Part shown: positions 11,221-39,061 of the stretch, piece after piece
Layout of the letters: each line of letters starts with the position of its first letter
How positions within the stretch are numbered: position 1 is the stretch's first letter
Assembly: GCA_020832465.1 (NCBI GenBank)
Contig: JAFIER010000079.1
Span: 1 to 39,120, forward strand
Direction: 5' to 3'
DNA from: Bernardetiaceae bacterium
Lineage (GTDB): Bacteria; Bacteroidota; Bacteroidia; Cytophagales; Bernardetiaceae
DNA: 39,120 nt
Translations under genes and position numbers: made by a program
The notes under the pieces: model-generated
The model's input: only the letters and a program-made list of their open reading frames with translations
Told to the model about the DNA's origin: nothing
Database searches by the model: none

Positions 11221-11273
11221 AAAGCATAAAAAAACTAACAGTTCTTGAAGAACTGTTAGTTTTTTTATGCTTT
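11221..11273. terminator. Bidirectional terminator hairpin between ald and the TonB-C gene
   Basis: Two perfect 26-bp arms (11221-11246 and 11248-11273) meet at a single central base. The middle holds the family core ACTAACAGTTCTT/AAGAACTGTTAGT, flanked by an A-run on one side and a T-run on the other, so it can end transcripts from both convergent genes. Confidence 0.85.
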
Positions 11274-11923: not shown

Positions 11924-12534
11924 ATTTAAAGTCGGTTTTAATAAAAAATGAATGTACTGTTTTCAATCAATTGCAATAAACGTTCAAAATTTGTACTACA
12001 AATTGATACGATTAAATTTTTTAGGTAAAAACCTTTATTTTTTCGCTGAACGTTTATAAAAAAATGATAAACACACGGCAAATATATTACTTTTTTGAAA
12101 AAATAGCTCAAAACTAACATTTATTAGACATTAAAAATTGGCACATTTGATAACTCATGAAACTATCAAACGTGCTTAGCCCTATTTTTTAAGGGCTTTA
12201 TTTATAAAAAACTCAGGTTCTACTAAGATTGCTACGGCTTTTTAGCTCCCACTATCATACTACTATACATTCGTTAGTCAGAAATGACATTTCTTTGAGA
12301 AATGTTATTTCTGAGCTCATTTTTCCATATAAAGTTTAGAAGAACCAAAATTCATAGCGATGCAAAAAAAGTAGTGATTTAGAAATAATATTTATAGGCT
12401 CTTTGGTTTGCCCTATTTGTACATTTAGTAAGCAGAATCGCAATTTTTAGGTTATCCATACAGTAAGTTGTACAACAGATACTTAACAGATTCAAACAAA
12501 AAATTTAAACAAAAGCCTAAGTTTTTTATTTTTG
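11924..12534. other. AT-rich non-coding region
   Basis: No gene is supported. The stretch holds one composite repeat at 12258-12330. The ATG frame that opens at 12468 overlaps the promoter of the next gene and is not used. Confidence 0.45.
12258..12330. repeat. Composite repeat: MITE-like left arm plus hairpin
   Basis: The text CATACTACTATACATTCG matches the left arm of the 8011-8111 element. Next comes a 35-nt hairpin (12279-12313; CAGAAATGACATTTCT paired with AGAAATGTTATTTCTG with one G-T pair), then the CATTTTTCCATA remnant. The right arm is lost. Confidence 0.6.
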
Positions 12535-15826: not shown

Positions 15827-15875
15827 ATAAATTTGAAACCGACCTTTGGCTGCCTTGTTGGATAAACGAATAAGT

Positions 15876-15925
15876 AATAGCAAAAAAATAACATTTCTTT
15901 TGAGAAATGTTATTTTTTTGCTATT
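15876..15925. terminator. Perfect 23-bp hairpin, terminator-like
   Basis: Arms 15876-15898 and 15903-15925 are fully complementary around TTTG. The core is ATAACATTTCT/AGAAATGTTAT and the outer part is GC-poor with A and T runs, so it can act as a terminator in both directions. It follows the 494-residue lipoprotein gene. Confidence 0.75.
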
Positions 15926-15929
15926 ATTG

Positions 15930-16795: not shown

Positions 16796-16828
16796 AGAAA
16801 TAACATCTATTTGAGAAATGTTATTTCT
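16796..16828. repeat. Hairpin of the AATAACATTTCT family
   Basis: AGAAATAACAT (16796-16806) pairs with ATGTTATTTCT (16818-16828). Outer text CTACTATAC (from 16775) and AATTTTCAAATG resemble the arms of the 8011-8111 element, so this is a degraded full copy. Confidence 0.6.
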
Positions 16829-16960
16829 GGACTTAATTTTCAAATGTTCGCTAGCACTAAGTAATATCCATTTGACTTATGCGTTAATATATCAAGAAGT
16901 GAAATAAAATAGAGGCATATAGCCTATATGGGTGTACGACAATTTTGCCAAATCATAATA

Positions 16961-19238: not shown

Positions 19239-19257
19239 TATAACAAGTAATGCTTAG

Positions 19258-19286
19258 AACTAACAGTTCTTTGAGAACTGTTAGTT
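19258..19286. repeat. Hairpin of the family, ACTAACAGTTCT core
   Basis: AACTAACAGTTCT pairs perfectly with AGAACTGTTAGTT around TTG, a 13-bp stem in intergenic DNA without an adjacent gene end. Confidence 0.7.
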
Positions 19287-19584
19287 TTGAAAGACTTTGA
19301 GCATTACATCTTTAAGACTACCCAAACTATAAGAGGAAAACCATAGCATAGAAAAAAATAGCCCACAAGCTCAAAGCAAAAGCAATAAGCTTGATTACGT
19401 ACCCTCAAAAATAAGTAGAATTATTTAGATTTTGAACATAAAGCGCGCTTTATATTAAACATTATCACTTTTAAGAAAAGCAAAGCTAACCCCACTTAAA
19501 AACTCACCGTTTTCGAAAAACAGAAAACTCTAATCCGTTTTATAGTACAAAACCCTTACCCAAGCAGATAATCAATCAAATGGG

Positions 19585-19782
19585 GTGTACGTCAAGTTGG
19601 TAAATCAACTTAGATAGTTTCAGCCTTCACAGTTTTTTAAGCTGTAGCCCAAAGCTCCAGCTTCGGAAGTGGCTTATAACGAAGCTGGTGCTTCGTACTA
19701 CAGGCAGTAAAGATATTAGATGTCAAATTTTTAGAAATGACATTTCTGACAGAAAACATGTCTTTGAGACAGGTTATTTCTA
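19585..19782 (+). repeat. Long dispersed repeat, copy 1
   Basis: It starts at GTGTACGTCAAGTTGGTAAA, runs through TTTCAGCCTTCACAG and AACGAAGCTGG, and ends near TAAAGATATTAGATGT at about 19722, followed by a degenerate family hairpin (19733-19782). It aligns with 38808-38959. The complementary right arm found in the second copy is missing here. Confidence 0.7.
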
Positions 19783-22864: not shown

Positions 22865-23108
22865 TTAGAAAGAATCCTGAAAATCCTAAAATCCCGTGAA
22901 TCCTGATTCAGACAAATTTAGATTCAAAAAATCCACGATAGGGATTTTTAAGAAACCTGTAAGCAGTCGAAGACCCTACGAGTGGTTAGAAAGAATCCTG
23001 AAAATCCTAAAATCCCGCAAATCCTGATTCAGACAAATTTAGATTCAAAAAATCCACGATAGGGATTTTTGAGAAACCTATAAGCAGTCGAAGACCCTAC
23101 GAGTGGTT
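22865..23108 (+). repeat. Dispersed repeat, two tandem 121-bp units
   Basis: Units 22865-22985 and 22986-23108 differ at only a few positions. Each has a period-9 array (ATCCTGAAA-like), GATTCAGACAAATTTA, then CCACGATAGGG ... GTCGAAGAC ... CCCTACGAGTGG, which can fold into a stem. The right edge overlaps the TGA stop of the 72-residue gene by one base. Confidence 0.85.
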
Positions 23109-23326: not shown

Positions 23327-23343
23327 ATCGTTTTAAGTTTTGT

Positions 23344-23390
23344 ATTTTTCATAACTAACAGTTCTGGCAGAACTGTTAGTTATGAAAAAT
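23344..23390. terminator. Perfect 22-bp hairpin after the nuclease-methyltransferase gene
   Basis: Arms 23344-23365 and 23369-23390 are fully complementary around GGC. The core is ACTAACAGTTCT; the outer ATTTTTCATA is unlike other copies. It begins 5 nt after the stop codon at 23395. Confidence 0.8.
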
Positions 23391-23394
23391 CATC

Positions 23395-25617
23395 TCAAAA
23401 TATTTTACTTTGTCCTTCTTTTTTAAGCTGCCATGCCTCCTCGCTTGTACGCTCGGCGATGTCTTCCAGTACATTCAAAATCGTTTGATTTTCGGGCGTA
23501 ATGCCATTTTTGAGCAGCGGCATAATATGCAATACAATTTCATCAAAAGTAGGAGCTTTGCTTTCGCGTTCCATACGGCGCAAATAAGAAATCAAATAAT
23601 AACGCACTCGCAAATCCAAATCAATATGCGTTTTGAACTTCGTATCTTTGCGTAAGCTAAAAACTTCGGACTGCTCGTCGTAGTCAAAAGTATCTAACAA
23701 AAAAGGCGTAAGGTCTGAATATTCTTTTTTCAATAAATCTAAAAAACCGAGCTCTAAGCCTTTGATTATCAACTCATCATTGATTTGCTCGAGCGTTGCG
23801 CCATTGTTCTGTGCAATTACGCCTTCGCAAGTTTGAATGATAATATCGCCAATATCCATACCCAGAGCCGCTTTCATGATGTACTTGGGCTTGCGCACTT
23901 TTTTGAAATTGATTATCAACTGACCCGCCAAAACTGTAAAAGGATTCTGACGCTTCTTAAAACTCGTCTGCCCATTAGATTGCTTGACCGCACCCGCATA
24001 TTCGAAACCGCAACGCTCGGCAGTCTCGACAATTAAATGCCAAAATTCTGGGTCTTTGTGTGCAAATACAAAAGACATCCACCTATCGAATTTCAAAACC
24101 CGATACATCTCCTCGATAGACTGCGATATGAGCTCATTGTACTCATCTTTACTTTTATTGCGCTCACCACCCTCGATAGCCTCCGCTTCATAATCCGCAT
24201 CGCTCACTTCCAAATCCAACCAAGCATTCCACATCGTCGATAAGTCCAAATACGGTATCTTTTTGCCATAAGGCGGGTCAGTATAAATATAATCCACACT
24301 CTCATCGGCTACAAAATCCAAATTTGTGGCAGAGCCTTTGCGAACCTCCACCTCTTTAATGTGATTGTGAAGCGTTAATTCTGATAACTCTTTTTTTGCA
24401 TTGATGACTTTTTTAATTTTTGTTTCAAAAATATGCATTAGCTCCAAATCACCGGGTTTCGGAGCTATTCTATATCTGTAATATCTAAAAACAGCACTAT
24501 CCCCACCGCCTGTACTTTTGGTATAATGAAATGTTTGGTTGAATTTATTTACACTACTCGAGAACGCCAAGAGTAGCGTTTTCTGTATATTTATATCCTT
24601 TTCATTTTTGATAAGATGCTTGAGAAATGCGAGCTGTGCGAGCTGCTTATCCGAAAAGAGTTGTTCAATAGTCCCTACATCAGAGCCTTTGGGTAGTTTG
24701 AATCCTTTGGGATAGGGATATTTTTTTAGGGCATCTTGTATATCTTTATCGCTTTTTGGTGCTTTTTTTTCAAATTTTTCTTTGATATATTCAAAACTTT
24801 TTTTCAGTTCTGCAATTTTTACGGGTGCGGTTAGTGCATCGACCATAAACACGGACATAGGGTTTAGGTCGAGGTGTATGCCTTTTCTATCCGTAACCAA
24901 GGCTTCTACTGCGGTTACGCCACTTCCACCGAAAGGGTCGAGGACGACATCTCCTGCTTTTGAGAAATTGAGAATATATTCTTGTACGACGTTCCAAGCC
25001 TGTTTGGTAAAATAACCGTGTACGCCAAAATGCCTTTTGGCAGCCTGTTTTCTTACTTTTATTTCACCGAGTAGGGGTTGTTGTAAGTAGTCAAATTGCT
25101 GTTTTTGTTTTTTAGATTTTTTGGCGTGTGGGGTATAGGCAAATTGTTTTCCACTTTGAAAAGAATCAGGGGCAAGGTACTGGCTTAGGTTTTCCCAATG
25201 CTGTGCAATATCTTTGAGTGGAAAAAAAAGTAATGGTTTTTCTTGGTCTTGTCTGAAAAGGATAAATTCTCTGCCATTGCAAAGGGCAAAAAACTTAGTG
25301 CGCACTTCGGGGTGAATGGCATAGGAATATACTTGTTCGATGTGGTCGCTATGGCTAATATTTTCAGTAGGTGATTTGGCATCGAGCACCCATGCGTAAG
25401 CATCTTCGATTTTGAGCAAATAATCGGGAACGAGGTTTACTTTTCGTTTTTTTGAGCCAATTTTCAAAAAGGGGTGTTCGAGGGTTTTGCTTCTGACAAT
25501 TTGCGGCTGTGCATAACCGAGCTGCTGCAATATCGGCAAAATAAGCACTTCTCTAACGCTATCCTCTTTAAAATCGGGAGATTCTAATTGTGCAAAATCA
25601 AAGTTTTCGTATAACAT
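23395..25617 (-). CDS. Fused PD-(D/E)XK nuclease and DNA methyltransferase
   Basis: A single 740-residue polypeptide that seems to join restriction and modification. The N-terminus (about 1-160) resembles the HsdR N-terminal nuclease: RxVLILPIL at 22-30, LVPDYLL with D65, then LDAK (D79, K81). The methyltransferase core follows, with motif I VLDPFGGSGVTA (225-236) and catalytic motif IV TDPPY (446-450), separated by a helical region of about 200 residues that may read DNA. WMSFVFAHKDPEFW (513-526) is typical of N6/N4 amino-methyltransferases. About 160 helical residues end it. I see no helicase. The target sequence is not predictable. A strong hairpin and a 72-residue gene follow. It might be an unusual modification-only enzyme if the nuclease is inactive. 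Confidence 0.87.
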   Translation of the reverse strand: MLYENFDFAQLESPDFKEDSVREVLILPILQQLGYAQPQIVRSKTLEHPFLKIGSKKRKVNLVPDYLLKIEDAYAWVLDAKSPTENISHSDHIEQVYSYAIHPEVRTKFFALCNGREFILFRQDQEKPLLFFPLKDIAQHWENLSQYLAPDSFQSGKQFAYTPHAKKSKKQKQQFDYLQQPLLGEIKVRKQAAKRHFGVHGYFTKQAWNVVQEYILNFSKAGDVVLDPFGGSGVTAVEALVTDRKGIHLDLNPMSVFMVDALTAPVKIAELKKSFEYIKEKFEKKAPKSDKDIQDALKKYPYPKGFKLPKGSDVGTIEQLFSDKQLAQLAFLKHLIKNEKDINIQKTLLLAFSSSVNKFNQTFHYTKSTGGGDSAVFRYYRYRIAPKPGDLELMHIFETKIKKVINAKKELSELTLHNHIKEVEVRKGSATNLDFVADESVDYIYTDPPYGKKIPYLDLSTMWNAWLDLEVSDADYEAEAIEGGERNKSKDEYNELISQSIEEMYRVLKFDRWMSFVFAHKDPEFWHLIVETAERCGFEYAGAVKQSNGQTSFKKRQNPFTVLAGQLIINFKKVRKPKYIMKAALGMDIGDIIIQTCEGVIAQNNGATLEQINDELIIKGLELGFLDLLKKEYSDLTPFLLDTFDYDEQSEVFSLRKDTKFKTHIDLDLRVRYYLISYLRRMERESKAPTFDEIVLHIMPLLKNGITPENQTILNVLEDIAERTSEEAWQLKKEGQSKIF

Positions 25618-25681: not shown

Positions 25682-25772
25682 CAATCCTGATTCAGACAAA
25701 TTTAAATTCAAAAAATCCACGATAGGGATTTTTGAGAAACCTATAAGCAGTCGAAGACCCTACGAGTGGTTC
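25682..25772 (+). repeat. Dispersed repeat, partial unit between defence modules
   Basis: From AATCCTGATTCAGACAAATT to CCCTACGAGTGGTT it matches the 3' three-quarters of the 121-bp unit. It lies in the gap between the divergent methyltransferase and DUF262 genes, and the DUF262 promoter follows immediately. Confidence 0.8.
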
Positions 25773-25875: not shown

Positions 25876-27270
25876 ATGAAAAAAGTCCATTTGATTTTGC
25901 CCGAAATTCAATCCGAATTTAGACTTACTAACGAAGAGAAAAATACTTGGATTTACCGAGATGAAGCAGGCAGCCCCCTCCTCAGTATTACTTCTGAAAC
26001 TGGTGATATTACAGATTTTAAAGTGCTTCAGAAAAGTGGAGAACTCAAATCGGTAAGCGATAAAGATATTTTAGAGTTTTTTTTAGAAAAATATATAGAA
26101 GCGGAGCGAGACTATCAAGAACAAAATGCCTCGGGTATAGAAAATACTGAAGACACCGAAGATAATCCCACAGCCAGTGAAAACCATGTATCGAAGCCCG
26201 ACTTTGACCCCGAGGATATTACGATAAGAAAGCAAGGCTTTACTGTGAGAGAGATTGTACATCATTTAATCGAAGAGCAACGTATAGACTTATCACCTGA
26301 TTTTCAGCGTTATTTTGTGTGGAAGCCCAAAGTCAAAACGGGTTTAATAGAGTCAATCCTATTGCGCATACCCTTACCTATATTTTATTTAGCCGAAAAT
26401 CATGAAGGAATATATCAGGTGGTAGATGGTGTGCAAAGATTGACTACACTTAGAGACTTTTTGAATAATAAATTCAAGCTCAAAGATTTGGAATACCTTA
26501 CGGATTGTGAAGGTAAAACCTTCGAGCAGCTTGCACCTAAATATCAAAGAAGAATTGAAGATACACAGCTCGACTTTAATATCATCTCGGCACGCACATC
26601 GGCGAGTGTAAAAACCGAGATTTTTAAGCGATTAAACTTAGGCGGGAAGCCGCTCAATAGGCAGGAAATCCGAAATAGCCTATCTACAAAAAAGATTCGC
26701 GACTTGATTAGAGGCATGGCATCTTCTGAAGCGTTCATTACGGCTACTAATGGGAGTATAAAACCCTTGCGTATGGAAGACCAAGAGTTGGTTATGCGTT
26801 TTGTGGGCTTTTATTTAGCCAAAATTGAGAAAATAGTTACTTACAAAGGCGAAATGGACTCGTTTTTAGATGATGTTTTGGAGCAGCTAAGTCTCCGAGA
26901 CAGTACAATAGATTTTGAAAAAATACGCCAAGAGTTTGCATACAGTATGCAAAATGTGCATTATTTGTTCGGTTCTTATGCTTTTCGCAAAATCTTACCT
27001 AAACATATAGAGAAGCAATACACCCCCCCTATCAATAAGTCCTTATTCACGGCATGGTCGGTGTTACTTTCGCAATATAGCCCCGAGCAGGTACAGGCTT
27101 ATCTCAAGCCTAATGCTTTTGTAAATGTTTTGGTCAATAAAATTCAAGAAGATGCGCAGTACTTAGAAGCCCTTTCAGCAGGCACAAATCAGTTAGATAA
27201 ACTCGATTATAGTTTCAAAATTGCTGACGAGCTTATTCAAACTCATCTTAAATCATTGATTCATGCTTAG
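25876..27270 (+). CDS. DUF262 (GmrSD-N/ParB-like) protein
   Basis: The first gene of a three-gene operon. The 464 residues begin with a separate acidic domain (about 1-110), then a DUF262 domain with PDFQRYFVWK (141-150) and the hallmark DGVQR (184-188). DUF262 resembles ParB and is the nucleotide-using half of GmrSD-type, modified-DNA-dependent restriction; no GmrSD DUF1524 HNH domain is seen in the remaining 270 residues, so cleavage would need another protein. The ATG of the next gene lies 8 nt inside its 3' end, so the two are translationally coupled. I infer a defence role from family and setting. Confidence 0.86.
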   Translation: MKKVHLILPEIQSEFRLTNEEKNTWIYRDEAGSPLLSITSETGDITDFKVLQKSGELKSVSDKDILEFFLEKYIEAERDYQEQNASGIENTEDTEDNPTASENHVSKPDFDPEDITIRKQGFTVREIVHHLIEEQRIDLSPDFQRYFVWKPKVKTGLIESILLRIPLPIFYLAENHEGIYQVVDGVQRLTTLRDFLNNKFKLKDLEYLTDCEGKTFEQLAPKYQRRIEDTQLDFNIISARTSASVKTEIFKRLNLGGKPLNRQEIRNSLSTKKIRDLIRGMASSEAFITATNGSIKPLRMEDQELVMRFVGFYLAKIEKIVTYKGEMDSFLDDVLEQLSLRDSTIDFEKIRQEFAYSMQNVHYLFGSYAFRKILPKHIEKQYTPPINKSLFTAWSVLLSQYSPEQVQAYLKPNAFVNVLVNKIQEDAQYLEALSAGTNQLDKLDYSFKIADELIQTHLKSLIHA

Positions 27271-28375
27271 AAAAATGCGAATAAAGCAGTTTAAATGCTT
27301 TTTAGATACAGAAATTAGTTTTGGTAAAATTACAGCCTTAGCGGGCGGAAACGGCGTAGGAAAGTCTTCTGTTGTACAAGGCTTGCTGTTACTCCGTCGC
27401 CTTTATCAAACTTATGAGACAAAAGAAGCTGAATCTATTTCTATTAACGACAAGGAAAAAACTTTTTTAGAATTAGGTTCGACTTCCGAGATTATCAATA
27501 CAAATGCCAAAGATAAAACTTTTTCTTTTGAGCTTTTTGATGATAAAGATGCTGTTGAAATTGCTCATTTTGAGAGTGAGTTAAATAAGCCTCGTAGTTT
27601 GAAAGGTTTATTGAAATCTACTAATGAAAATCGCCTTCCTTTTTATAACGATTTTCATTATCTGAATGCCGAGCGTCTTGGACCTCGTAATACGCAGCAG
27701 CTCACCACACAAAACTTTATTCACGTAGGTTTTCAAGGCGAGTACACAGGGCAAGCCATTGCTGATAGCATGACGCACCGAGTAGATGCCATAAGAAAAC
27801 GGCGTGATACAACAAAGTTTGGAGTTACTATACAAGAGCAAATCGAGGCATGGATGGACTTCATTGTTCCCGATGTGCAGTTCAATGTGCAAGATTATGA
27901 AGCCATAAATCAAGTGCGTATTGGGATAAAAAAATTAGGTGCTGATACGGATTTTTTACATCCCAATAATATTGGATTTGGTATTAGTTATGTATTGCCC
28001 ATTGTTGTTACGGGTTTGATTGCTCAAAAGGGTAGTCTAATTATTATTGAAAATCCTGAGGCACATTTGCACCCCTTTGGACAGTCTCGTATAGGTCAGT
28101 TTTTGGGACACATGGCAGGTGCGGGCTTACAAATTATAGTAGAAACGCATAGCGAACACGTCATAAACGGCATTCGCATCGCAAGTCTCAAAGACCACGT
28201 GAGTTATAAAGACGTAGTTATCAATTTTTTTAGTCAAGAAAAAAACAAACCTCTCAAGGTTATCAAAATCGAACTTAATGAGACTTCTGATTTACAAAAG
28301 TTTCCAAGCGGATTTTTCGACCAAGGGCAACGAGATTTTGCCGAAATTATGCATTACAAAAAACAACGAAAATGA
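27263..28375 (+). CDS. AAA ATPase with a DUF3696-like C-terminus
   Basis: A 370-residue SMC/OLD-like ATPase. The start MLRKMRIKQFKCF leads to Walker A GGNGVGKS (28-35). GFGISYVLPIV (238-248) sits at the signature position, Walker B LIIIENPEAHLHP (259-271) follows, then the switch ETHSEH (294-299). The end, PSGFFDQGQRD (about 348-358), is typical of DUF3696. Such ATPases drive several anti-phage systems. It overlaps the DUF262 gene by 8 nt and the next gene by 4 nt (ATGA), so all are co-translated. M5 at 27275 is a possible alternative start. Confidence 0.88.
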   Translation: MLRKMRIKQFKCFLDTEISFGKITALAGGNGVGKSSVVQGLLLLRRLYQTYETKEAESISINDKEKTFLELGSTSEIINTNAKDKTFSFELFDDKDAVEIAHFESELNKPRSLKGLLKSTNENRLPFYNDFHYLNAERLGPRNTQQLTTQNFIHVGFQGEYTGQAIADSMTHRVDAIRKRRDTTKFGVTIQEQIEAWMDFIVPDVQFNVQDYEAINQVRIGIKKLGADTDFLHPNNIGFGISYVLPIVVTGLIAQKGSLIIIENPEAHLHPFGQSRIGQFLGHMAGAGLQIIVETHSEHVINGIRIASLKDHVSYKDVVINFFSQEKNKPLKVIKIELNETSDLQKFPSGFFDQGQRDFAEIMHYKKQRK

Positions 28376-28581
28376 AAACTAACTTTTTACTTTTCAAAGA
28401 AGCCTTTGCGCTTGATGATTGGTCTTTATTTGTGGATAAGTTTGCTGCGCTCAACGAAGCTATTCTGAAAGCAAAAGATGATAATGAAGATGAGGTGCTA
28501 CTACAAGCAAGTTTATTAGAACTCGAAATATCTAATCATAAGCTGACAAAAAAACTCTACGAAATTATTTACACCGACTAG
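28372..28581 (+). CDS. First part (69 codons) of the third operon gene, ending at an in-frame TAG
   Basis: It overlaps the ATPase stop by ATGA and encodes a 69-residue acidic helical peptide, MKTNFLLFKEAFALDDWSLF to YEIIYTD. The TAG at 28579-28581 is in the same frame as the 240-codon frame that follows; without it one 314-residue protein would result. It may be a separate small protein with a coupled partner, or half of a recently broken gene. Confidence 0.6.
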   Translation: MKTNFLLFKEAFALDDWSLFVDKFAALNEAILKAKDDNEDEVLLQASLLELEISNHKLTKKLYEIIYTD

Positions 28582-28593
28582 GAAACGCTACAG

Positions 28594-29316
28594 TTGCTTA
28601 TTCCTAATATTACGCACGACATCATAGAGCCACTACGTATTATACTGGGCTATGCTCAAAAAAATATTCAGGATTTAGAGCAGTTAGAAAATGCATATCC
28701 CGATAGCTACAATGGCTTGATGGGATTGGAGTTTAAAAACCTTCCTAATATTCCGAAAGAAGTAGCCGTATCTGATGTGCATACTTGGTTTGATTTTCAT
28801 TTTCATAAATACCATCAAAATCCTCAAAACGACTATTTTATTAAATGTTTAGAAAGACTTCAAGGAAACAAATTTAATCCTTACTTTCCAAACTTAGCAT
28901 ATTCTAACGCGCTTATCAGCACTAAACTAAATGCCCAAGAAATATGGCGTTTGTTTTATAAAAGTCAAAAAACAGAGCAAGAGCGCAATCAATATGAAAA
29001 ACTATTTGGTGCGGGCACTAAAATAGCAGTTATCAGAAAAATAGCTAAAAAAATAGCAAAGGCTAACTTATACAAATACGATCCTGATTTGAGTAGGTAT
29101 AACAGCAAAAAGAACACAAACAAAAAAGATACACCGTTTCAAATTTTCAAACAAGGCTATGGAAAAAACTTGATATACCTATCTACAGATTTTGAAAAAG
29201 GAACATTCGAAGTTTGTAATGCCAAAGGTAAACATCAAGGCGAGTATCGTTTTGATGGTATGCTTAACAGTAAAGCGGATAAAAATGGTGGGCATGATAT
29301 TGTACTACAGCTTTAA
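28594..29316 (+). CDS. Second part of the third operon gene, toxin-like C-terminus
   Basis: In frame with the 69-codon part, after one TAG. No ATG or clear ribosome-binding site lies near; a TTG at 28594 is the nearest possible start, so it could be translated only by readthrough or weakly. The 240 residues are helical at first. The C-terminal 60 contain TPFQIFK, then YLSTDFEKGTFEVCNAKGKH, then QGEYRFDG and GGHDIVL, a strand pattern with GKHxGE that resembles colicin E3-like and polymorphic-toxin barrels. I infer a possible RNase or nuclease effector, unproven. The dispersed repeat starts within 10 nt of its stop. Confidence 0.6.
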   Translation: MLIPNITHDIIEPLRIILGYAQKNIQDLEQLENAYPDSYNGLMGLEFKNLPNIPKEVAVSDVHTWFDFHFHKYHQNPQNDYFIKCLERLQGNKFNPYFPNLAYSNALISTKLNAQEIWRLFYKSQKTEQERNQYEKLFGAGTKIAVIRKIAKKIAKANLYKYDPDLSRYNSKKNTNKKDTPFQIFKQGYGKNLIYLSTDFEKGTFEVCNAKGKHQGEYRFDGMLNSKADKNGGHDIVLQL

Positions 29317-29324
29317 CACCTGCA

Positions 29325-29362
29325 AATCCTGATTCAGACAAATTTAAATTCAAAAAATCCAA
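29325..29362 (+). repeat. Dispersed repeat, short fragment
   Basis: GCAAATCCTGATTCAGACAA through AAATTCAAAAAATCCA matches the middle of the 121-bp unit. It lies between the DUF262 operon and the convergent Fic gene. Confidence 0.7.
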
Positions 29363-29434
29363 GAGTTCCTTGTAAGAACCCAAGCAATGGCATAAAAACA
29401 AAACCCATTATTTTAATCGTGGGGGGCTTGAGCA

Positions 29435-30985
29435 TCATACAGTATCTACAAAGCAATCACGATATATTTTTTCTATCTGTGCTACTTCTTCGGAGGTAAG
29501 CCGTGCAAATTCTTTTTCACCTGCTCTTTTCGAGAGTTTTCCGTTATTTTGTTTCAAAAAACTAAGCAACAAACTGATTTGCTTGTCAGAGATTGTAAAA
29601 TATTCGCTTATTTTCGTTTTAAAATTGTCGTATTGCATCAAATATTCAACTTCTTGGGGTAGAATTTGCGTAAGCGTATAATCCAAACAATCATACAAAA
29701 ACTCAGCTGCCGCAGTAGCATCAAAATAACGATAAAAATCTATCGTATTATTCAAGACCTCTACATTATGCTGCGCTGTTTCTCTCCATTCAATATGCTC
29801 GAGCAAAGGGTGCGAATGGGCTTCTAAAACCCTTCTATAGGCTGTTATTTTATCCAAAATAGCCGCTGATATAGGGAAAATATTTCCCGTAGGATAAAAC
29901 TTTTTTTCAGCCATGATTTGATGTATCAAATAGCGGTGCAACCGCCCGTTGCCATCTTCAAAAGGGTGTATGAATACGAACCCAAAAGAGAGTGCAGCAG
30001 CACATAATACAGCATCTAAATCATTTTTTACCAGTAATTGATAAGTATCAAAAAAGCCTTGCATAAGCAGCTGTAAATCTTGCCATTTTGCTGAAATATG
30101 TTCGGGTATAGGCATTGCAGTTTCAGGGTCATGCTCGCCTATAAATCCTCCTTTTTGGCGGTATCCGAAGGAAACAAATCTACTTTTTCCGATGATAAGT
30201 TTTTGTAGTGCTACAAGTTCTTGTTCCGAAAGCGGTCTTATTCCCGCTTCTCCAATAGCGCGTCCCCAGCGTGCTATTCTTTGATTTTTAGCACTTTCAC
30301 CCTCGATTGTAAAAGAAGATTTTGAATCTTTGAGCAATAAAAAAGCGGCTGTGCGCGCTCTAATTTGAGGGCTTAAATTTTGAAAATATTTTTCTTTTTG
30401 TGCTTCAAAATCAGCCGCAATATAAGCCTCAAGTTTTGGCGTTCTGTAAATTATAGGACAAAAATTAACCGTTCCGATTAAGTTATTGATAATGCGATGG
30501 CGTATAGATTTTGTGCCTTCTGTGCGTGCAAACTGCTTTTTCTCATCGAGGAGGGCGACGTAGTTACCGCTTTTTAAGTTTTCAATAGGGAGTTTTTGAG
30601 CTGTAAGCCATTCGTATAAAAACCATAGCTTTCGGCTATATTGGCTTAGGGGTTGCTTCTGTATCCAAGCCTCGAGCTCTTCGTGCTGAATTTTTTGAAA
30701 TAGCTTTTTAAAAAAAAGCAAATCTATGCCTTCATATTTGAGTGCAAAAATTAAATGACTTAAAAGCTCTTCTTGAGGCGCATAACGTGGCGTAAAAACT
30801 TGCCATTTTTCGGCATTGTATTTTTTGTGTTTAGAACTAATTACAGACAAGCGTGTAGGCAAAGGCATAGATAGCTCGAGCGCATCTATAACTGCACCAT
30901 AGCCCACTAAAGTACTGTCTGTCTCGGGAGCTTCTCTTCCGTGAAAAACGTTTATTTTTTGTGAAAAACGTTTGTTTTTAGTCAT
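29435..30985 (-). CDS. Fic-domain protein with a self-inhibitory motif
   Basis: The 516 residues carry the Fic active motif HPFEDGNGR (340-348), which transfers AMP or another nucleotide group to proteins. An inhibitory SFTIEG (S224 to G229, fitting S/TxxxE/NG) lies before it within the same chain, so E228 can hold the enzyme off (class II Fic). Residues 1-180 form an extra domain and the C-terminal ~130 residues resemble a winged-helix region. It ends the defence block. The role could be a toxin-like modifier or regulator. Repeated AAACGTTT boxes lie around its start codon. Confidence 0.92.
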   Translation of the reverse strand: MTKNKRFSQKINVFHGREAPETDSTLVGYGAVIDALELSMPLPTRLSVISSKHKKYNAEKWQVFTPRYAPQEELLSHLIFALKYEGIDLLFFKKLFQKIQHEELEAWIQKQPLSQYSRKLWFLYEWLTAQKLPIENLKSGNYVALLDEKKQFARTEGTKSIRHRIINNLIGTVNFCPIIYRTPKLEAYIAADFEAQKEKYFQNLSPQIRARTAAFLLLKDSKSSFTIEGESAKNQRIARWGRAIGEAGIRPLSEQELVALQKLIIGKSRFVSFGYRQKGGFIGEHDPETAMPIPEHISAKWQDLQLLMQGFFDTYQLLVKNDLDAVLCAAALSFGFVFIHPFEDGNGRLHRYLIHQIMAEKKFYPTGNIFPISAAILDKITAYRRVLEAHSHPLLEHIEWRETAQHNVEVLNNTIDFYRYFDATAAAEFLYDCLDYTLTQILPQEVEYLMQYDNFKTKISEYFTISDKQISLLLSFLKQNNGKLSKRAGEKEFARLTSEEVAQIEKIYRDCFVDTV

Positions 30986-31050: not shown

Positions 31051-31082
31051 ATATTAGAATCCTAGTCAAAAATCTACTGTTT

Positions 31083-31320
31083 TTTTAAGAAACCTATAAG
31101 CAGTCGAAGACCCTATGAGTGGTTAGAAAGAATCCTGAAAATCCTAAAATCCCGCAAATCCTGATTCAGACAAATTTAGATTCAAAAAATCCACTCACAG
31201 GGTCGTTCCGACCACTGATAGGGATTTTTGAGAAACCTATAAGTGGTCGAAGACCCTACCAGTGGTTAGAAAGAATCCTGAAAATCCTAAAATCCCGTAA
31301 ATCCTGATTCAGACAAATTT
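31083..31320 (+). repeat. Dispersed repeat, two-unit cluster with a changed stem
   Basis: A partial unit, a complete unit and the start of a third follow each other. In the middle unit an insertion (CTCACAGGGTCGTTCCGACC) is present and the stem reads CCACTGATAGGG ... CCCTACCAGTGG, unlike the CCACGATAGGG ... CCCTACGAGTGG of other copies but again self-complementary. The cluster ends 10 nt from the stop of the T9SS gene. Confidence 0.85.
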
Positions 31321-38748: not shown

Positions 38749-38807
38749 GCAGCAAATAAGCGCAAGATTAACAACTTATCAAGAACCACACTGCTATACA
38801 TGTAACG

Positions 38808-39061
38808 GCTGTACGCCAAGTTGGTAAATCAACTTAGCTAGTTTCAGCCTTCACAGTTTTTAAGCTGTAGTAAAGCTGTAGTCCGCAGCTCCCGCGTGGG
38901 GAGTGGGTTTTAACGAAGCTGGAGCGTCGGGCGACAGGGAATTAAGATAATAGATGTGAAATTTTTTGAAATAAAATTTATGACAGAAAAGATATTTATG
39001 AAAATATCACATCTAATATCTTTACTTCCTGTAGTAATAAGCTCCATCTTCGTTATAAGCC
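38808..39061. mobile_element. Long repeat copy 2, a MITE-like palindrome
   Basis: 38808-38959 aligns with 19585-19722. In addition 39007-39061 is the near reverse complement of 38906-38959, so two arms of about 55 bp face each other around a 47-nt centre that holds a degenerate AAATAAAATTTATGACAGAAA hairpin. CTCCC-GCGT-GGGGAG (about 38889-38902) lies near the left arm. There is no coding frame, which fits a non-autonomous element. Confidence 0.55.

Follow-up and report, generated by a model that had tools for sequence, protein, structure and literature searches.

A 121-bp unit standing twice in tandem (22865-23108, detected with TRF) in the genome of a Bernardetiaceae bacterium (GCA_020832465.1; 4.6 Mb in 289 contigs) raises the question of what such a unit is made of, whether its fold is conserved and what could have spread it. 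The window analyzed here is one contig of this assembly, JAFIER010000079.1, with a length of 39,120 nt. The original prediction described the repeat as structured, and this was borne out: it is a real tandem unit that folds better than shuffled sequences, with z of about -3.5 to -3.9 for its 67-nt part and -5.4 for a hairpin doublet described below. The array alone folds no better than shuffles (z -0.3). Rfam gave no match above the gathering score in the window, and a literature search for the repeat strings found nothing relevant.

A mosaic of two repeat families

Two dispersed repeat families make up the 121-bp unit: a 9-nt-periodic array in its 5′ part (array element A) and a hairpin in its 3′ part (hairpin B). 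All copies of the unit in the window are located between annotated genes. In the tandem pair (copies 1 and 2), A is found at 22873-22915 (AATCCTGAAAATCCTAAAATCCCGTGAATCCTGATTCAGACAA) and 22994-23036, both on the + strand, and B at 22952-22987 and 23073-23108, both on the - strand and identified with the hairpin model R1 (E 1.8e-10 and 2.2e-11). The partial copy 3 (25683-25771) comprises only the 3′ end of A (AATCCTGATTCAGACAA; 25683-25699, +, by alignment) and a hairpin (25736-25771, -, E 2.2e-11), and part of a further copy (29319-29364) includes the 3′ end of A only (29325-29341, +, by alignment). A hairpin-only fragment at 31082-31124 (copy 4; B at 31089-31124, -, E 1.7e-10, with no A preceding it) is followed by a longer, 142-nt copy 5 at 31126-31267, which contains A (31131-31173, +), a second, inverted B (31189-31226, +, E 2.9e-8, found also in the alignment and in the doublet fold) and the B hairpin with the window's top score (31232-31267, -, E 6.4e-12), retaining GGTCGAAGACC. 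An array-only fragment comes next (31269-31320), with A copy 6 at 31274-31316 (+). The window also holds an isolated A (152-194, -) and a B hairpin of the subfamily CGCCCTCTTTGAGGTCTTCGACCGTCAAAGAGGCGG (339-374, +, E 2.6e-11). Both parts are recovered in a single match in this stretch only, the query retrieving its first ~46 nt elsewhere in the genome; the full unit is confined to 9 kb and is therefore attributed to local duplication.

Array element A consists of period-9 AATC units with a terminal TTCAGACAA, and the predicted period-9 AATCCTG array ending in GATTCAGACAA is present, as is the predicted GTC-GAA-GAC mini-hairpin. The 26-nt array core (AATCCTGNNAATCCTNNAATCCTGNNAATCCTGATTCAGACAA) has 89 near-matches in this genome; 10 further genomes from its family contain none. 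Inverted A′ A pairs often lie 38-40 nt apart in this genome, and at L272:601-711 inverted A-type ends stand about 60 bp apart directly after a PDDEXK-like ORF. Hairpin B, 36 nt long, is dispersed in about 100 copies: a loose pattern finds 93 matches in the genome against 21 for the reversed-pattern control, and the hairpin model finds 109. Weaker model matches occur in 9 of 23 related genomes (8-39 in each), and those inspected are hairpins of the same kind with different stem sequences. The two families are co-located far above chance, with 48 of 101 hairpins in the genome lying within 200 bp of A against an expectation of 0.9% per hairpin.

Covariation in the hairpin stem

The claim that folding matters had been drawn from a unit placed at 31197-31264, in which both stem arms appeared to have changed together. 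The two strings lie elsewhere, CCACTGATAGGG at 31212-31223 and CCCTACCAGTGG at 31254-31265, and alignment shows that the copy at 31126-31267 carries 22 extra nt (31195-31216, TCACAGGGTCGTTCCGACCACT) absent from copies 1-3. Therefore CCACTGATAGGG belongs to a second, inverted hairpin, of which it is the 3′ half (31189-31226, +), facing the hairpin at 31232-31267, and the two together form a REPIN-like inverted doublet. Judged by this alignment, copies 1-3 lack most of the left hairpin, through loss or from the outset, and for this reason the cited change is not compensatory; the copies differ by an indel and, in the other arm, by a single G/C difference. A compensatory change inside the window was thus rejected as a misread indel. 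The reported extension of the mini-hairpin to GGTC-GAA-GACC does exist, as a one-sided G.T to G-C difference, G-C being the state most often seen across the family.

Support for the fold comes from the genome-wide family. After a few divergent or chance-looking pattern matches had been excluded by eye, 69 distinct copies were kept and 60 of 36 nt were aligned without gaps. They have an outer stem, a bulge, a middle stem that is weak at its central position, another bulge, a GGTC-GACC stem and a 3-nt loop. Of the cells in these 60 copies, 87.9% are paired (76.6% in shuffles). The covariation score reaches 0.404, compared with 0.191 after shuffling and no more than 0.18 in the slid controls, none of these controls being tree-aware. 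The excess of doubly changed cells (124 against 37 in shuffles, each cell counting sequences and not events) argues that compensating changes keep the hairpin B stem and that its fold is conserved, as RNA or as single-stranded DNA. RNAalifold alone kept 8 pairs, 6 of them with double changes. The number of pairs changed on both sides (10 of 15) does not discriminate by itself, as shuffles reach 9.0.

Copies of a dispersed repeat share descent, and a few ancient changes in subfamilies that were later multiplied would inflate the count of compensated cells; the copies do group into few subfamilies, and cells tally sequences. We consider this artefact highly improbable, since columns 8-29 and 9-28 each show three pair types arising by double change (GC/AU/UA), the slid controls stay far below the observed score, and further stem variants are found in related genomes. 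Selection on the fold, as originally proposed, is thus upheld by the genome-wide covariation and not by the pair of changes first cited.

A conserved stem between annotated genes would also be expected if the repeat acted as RNA, the hairpin being amplified as a transcription terminator or mRNA stabilizer and the array serving as a regulatory binding site. This seems quite improbable: besides the lack of an Rfam match, the hairpin copies face either direction and form mosaics with A, the doublets and local direct duplication resemble mobile DNA, and the array has no fold.

Arrays at GxxExxY genes

Exact matches to the array pattern, among the matches listed, come from Bacteroidota, Poribacteria, Chloroflexota, Cyanobacteria, Thiotrichaceae, Desulfobacterales and others, and the unit spacing 9-8-9 is repeated across phyla. 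Four inverted array pairs from other genomes, with 513-570 bp between the members of a pair, each enclose an ORF of 126-128 aa. Three of these four ORFs were scanned and match PF13366/TIGR04256 (GxxExxY); the fourth aligns with the other three and is 78% identical to the first. Of 296 genomes sampled from the phylum, 149 carry GxxExxY genes, as do 23 of 27 array-bearing genomes from several phyla. We found no literature on arrays flanking GxxExxY genes; one paper mentions the family briefly, as the annotation that a pipeline gave instead of a cas4 gene.

The immediate flanks of 69 GxxExxY genes mirror each other as inverted copies far more strongly than do control windows placed 600 bp out (median 21 against 10, p = 3e-12, with no control above 15). 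Arrays were found within 220 bp of 108 of 129 GxxExxY genes (84%) and of 14 of 124 control windows (11%), and array type follows protein subtype, proteins with a GPG motif having CACAGAG-like arrays (53 against 1) and those with a GNG motif AATC arrays (30 against 1; p = 1.1e-20); the array classifier behind these counts is a third version, tuned on the same loci and control windows, so that the figures do not come from an untouched test set. Its first version missed many genes (79 found), and its second, built on an incorrect motif pattern, was not strict enough and scored 53 of 130 control windows as AATC-positive; both were replaced. The array thus forms inverted ends around the GxxExxY gene in many phyla, and subtype and array type are linked. 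Between phyla, array-flanked GNG proteins share 58-75% identity, a level close to that seen inside Bacteroidota and one that horizontal transfer would lead one to expect; one from Pontibacter is 74% identical to its counterpart in Anabaena and 61% to that in Mucilaginibacter (L353).

Genes of the PF05635 (S23) family failed as a plain negative control, having inverted arrays of their own with period 7. In the same genomes the CACAGAG class was present at 0 of 20 PF05635 genes, and at these four-helix-bundle loci (L463-L492) lag-7 matches reached 19.7 of 28, the figure for control windows being 12.0. The kind of array thus varies with the gene family, and arrays are not a general intergenic feature; those of period 7 may bear on the heptanucleotide repeats of cyanobacteria and Beggiatoaceae.

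The predicted fold of the GxxExxY protein is nearest to Cas4 (SSO0001), lambda exonuclease, LHK-Exo and MGME1, in a structure model built from four input sequences (pLDDT 78.6, with low scores for the other four models). D66, E76, K78 and a Q-x-x-x-Y stretch are invariant in four aligned proteins, a set that fits PD-(D/E)XK exonucleases of the RecB/Cas4 type. The 126-aa GxxExxY protein is accordingly predicted, from this model, to be a Cas4/RecB-like PD-(D/E)XK nuclease.

In the Bernardetiaceae genome itself, the single full-length GxxExxY gene (L270) is of the GAGF type, and the matching subtype is absent. Variant AATCCTG arrays are visible on both sides of this gene, which the flank classifier scored as 'none'. 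The array copies in the window bracket no GxxExxY gene and therefore could only be gene-less relatives.

Proposed spread among defense modules and relation to known repeats

Copies of the unit separate three anti-phage defense modules in the window: a PglX-like DNA methyltransferase (23395-25617, -), NsnA, NsnB and NsnC (25876-29316, +), which we take to be the Menshen system, and a Fic protein assigned by PADLOC to PDC-S24 (29435-30985, -). NsnC (28372-29316) has one in-frame TAG at codon 70 in an otherwise open frame. Other repeats are also present in the window. Palindromes of a second family, perfect or nearly so (AACTAACAGTTCT..AGAACTGTTAGTT and AAATAACATTTCT..AGAAATGTTATTT), are found between genes at 11221-11273, 12280-12325, 15875-15926, 16796-16841, 19256-19301, 23342-23387 and other positions, and a dispersed repeat of ~185 nt starting with GGGTGTACGTCAAGTTGGTAAATCAACTTAG occurs at 19583-19767 and 38807-39001 with 79-95% identity.

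At two Pontibacter loci, relatives carry the whole array-flanked element, one end only, or neither. A clean empty site with target duplication was found at neither of them, and the intergenic DNA also differs among relatives. Since presence varies and no exact empty site was seen, the mechanism for both parts is proposed by inference. The GxxExxY nuclease would recognize the array as the end of its element; this enzyme may cut or resect DNA at arrays or at structures formed by array pairs and so let the ends spread, array copies without a gene being non-autonomous remnants. A Y1 (RAYT-type) transposase would recognize hairpin B in its single-stranded DNA form during replication. Adjacent array and hairpin copies could then have fused into one composite. 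Recombination would have duplicated it, so that direct repeats now separate the methyltransferase, NsnABC and Fic modules and offer potential exchange points. We regard it as probable that the unit is a two-family mosaic amplified among defense genes, its array recognized by a GxxExxY nuclease and its hairpin by a Y1 transposase; mobilization by either enzyme, like module exchange by recombination between unit copies, is put forward on this basis.

This proposal has a competitor, in which the unit is a plain BIME/REPIN-type mosaic, both parts being passive substrates of one Y1 (RAYT) transposase, and the link of the array to GxxExxY genes reflects an insertion-site preference. The genome does contain three Y1_Tnp genes (L051, L052 and L053), hairpin B lies ~50 bp downstream of one of them (L051), and the hairpins form doublets. 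We hold this account to be unlikely, because 0 of 30 Y1 loci in related genomes have a B hairpin, the Y1 genes are flanked by other repeats, and a site preference does not predict the pairing of protein subtype with array type. Over all 33 Y1 loci searched, B stands beside the transposase at one, and a RAYT as cognate of hairpin B was not supported. Each of the three Y1 genes is adjoined by its own palindromic repeats (CCTAACGGCG..GCCGTTAG, CACCCCTTTGGGGTTGG and CACCCTTTAGGGTG), which are candidates for three further REP-like families.

Earlier work described short direct repeats scattered in unrelated bacteria but knew of no agent that spreads them (PMC4679880), and a repeat type tied to a small nuclease family offers a testable protein for that question. 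The array-nuclease link suggests an unrecognized kind of mobile DNA. A broader reading, which we offer tentatively and hold to be possible rather than probable, is that small genes from two families or more, those for GxxExxY nucleases (period 9-10) and for S23-like four-helix-bundle proteins (period 7), travel on unrecognized minimal mobile elements with inverted short-repeat arrays as ends, which the encoded protein would read; the short direct repeats scattered in many bacteria, the window array among them, would be their gene-less offspring. Hairpin B adds a structurally conserved REP-like family that lacks the usual tag, and the mosaic stands at the borders of three anti-phage defense modules, whose exchange the repeats could drive.

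Among known systems, hairpin B most resembles REP/REPIN (BIME) sequences (PMC3733652, PMC6006769), being a short, imperfect, bulged hairpin of high copy number that is intergenic in the window and also occurs in inverted doublets and in mosaics with other repeats. Eleven inverted hairpin neighbors lie within 60 bp of each other in the genome, 9 of them in +- arrangement with gaps of at most 4 bp. Unlike the GTAG superfamily of REPs, hairpin B has GTAG at its foot in 0 of 88 copies; CGTC, which marks the other superfamily, is found at columns 4-7 in 23 of 88 copies, where the columns are mostly paired in the model, and is confined to some subfamilies. The family is therefore REP-like in build and falls outside both described superfamilies (PMC3733652); its anatomy is that of a REP/REPIN, structurally conserved and without the usual tag.

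The window array is of the kind that brackets GxxExxY/PDDEXK_3 genes (TIGR04256, PF13366) in many phyla. It recalls heptanucleotide direct repeats (TAACTGA, PMC4679880) and cyanobacterial STRRs in being a short-period direct repeat shared by unrelated phyla, and the authors of the former suggested a repeat-binding protein as a possible mobile element. TAACTGA has period 7 whereas array A has period 9, and the period-7 arrays found here bracket four-helix-bundle (PF05635) genes, not GxxExxY. Inverted ends around one small gene, gene-less copies and A′ A pairs at a fixed spacing of 38-40 nt are likewise reminiscent of MITEs and TIR-flanked TIRYTs (PMC3733652). The array-flanked elements differ from these in that target duplication is not seen, the enclosed gene is a predicted PD-(D/E)XK nuclease instead of a transposase, and the ends are tandem arrays.
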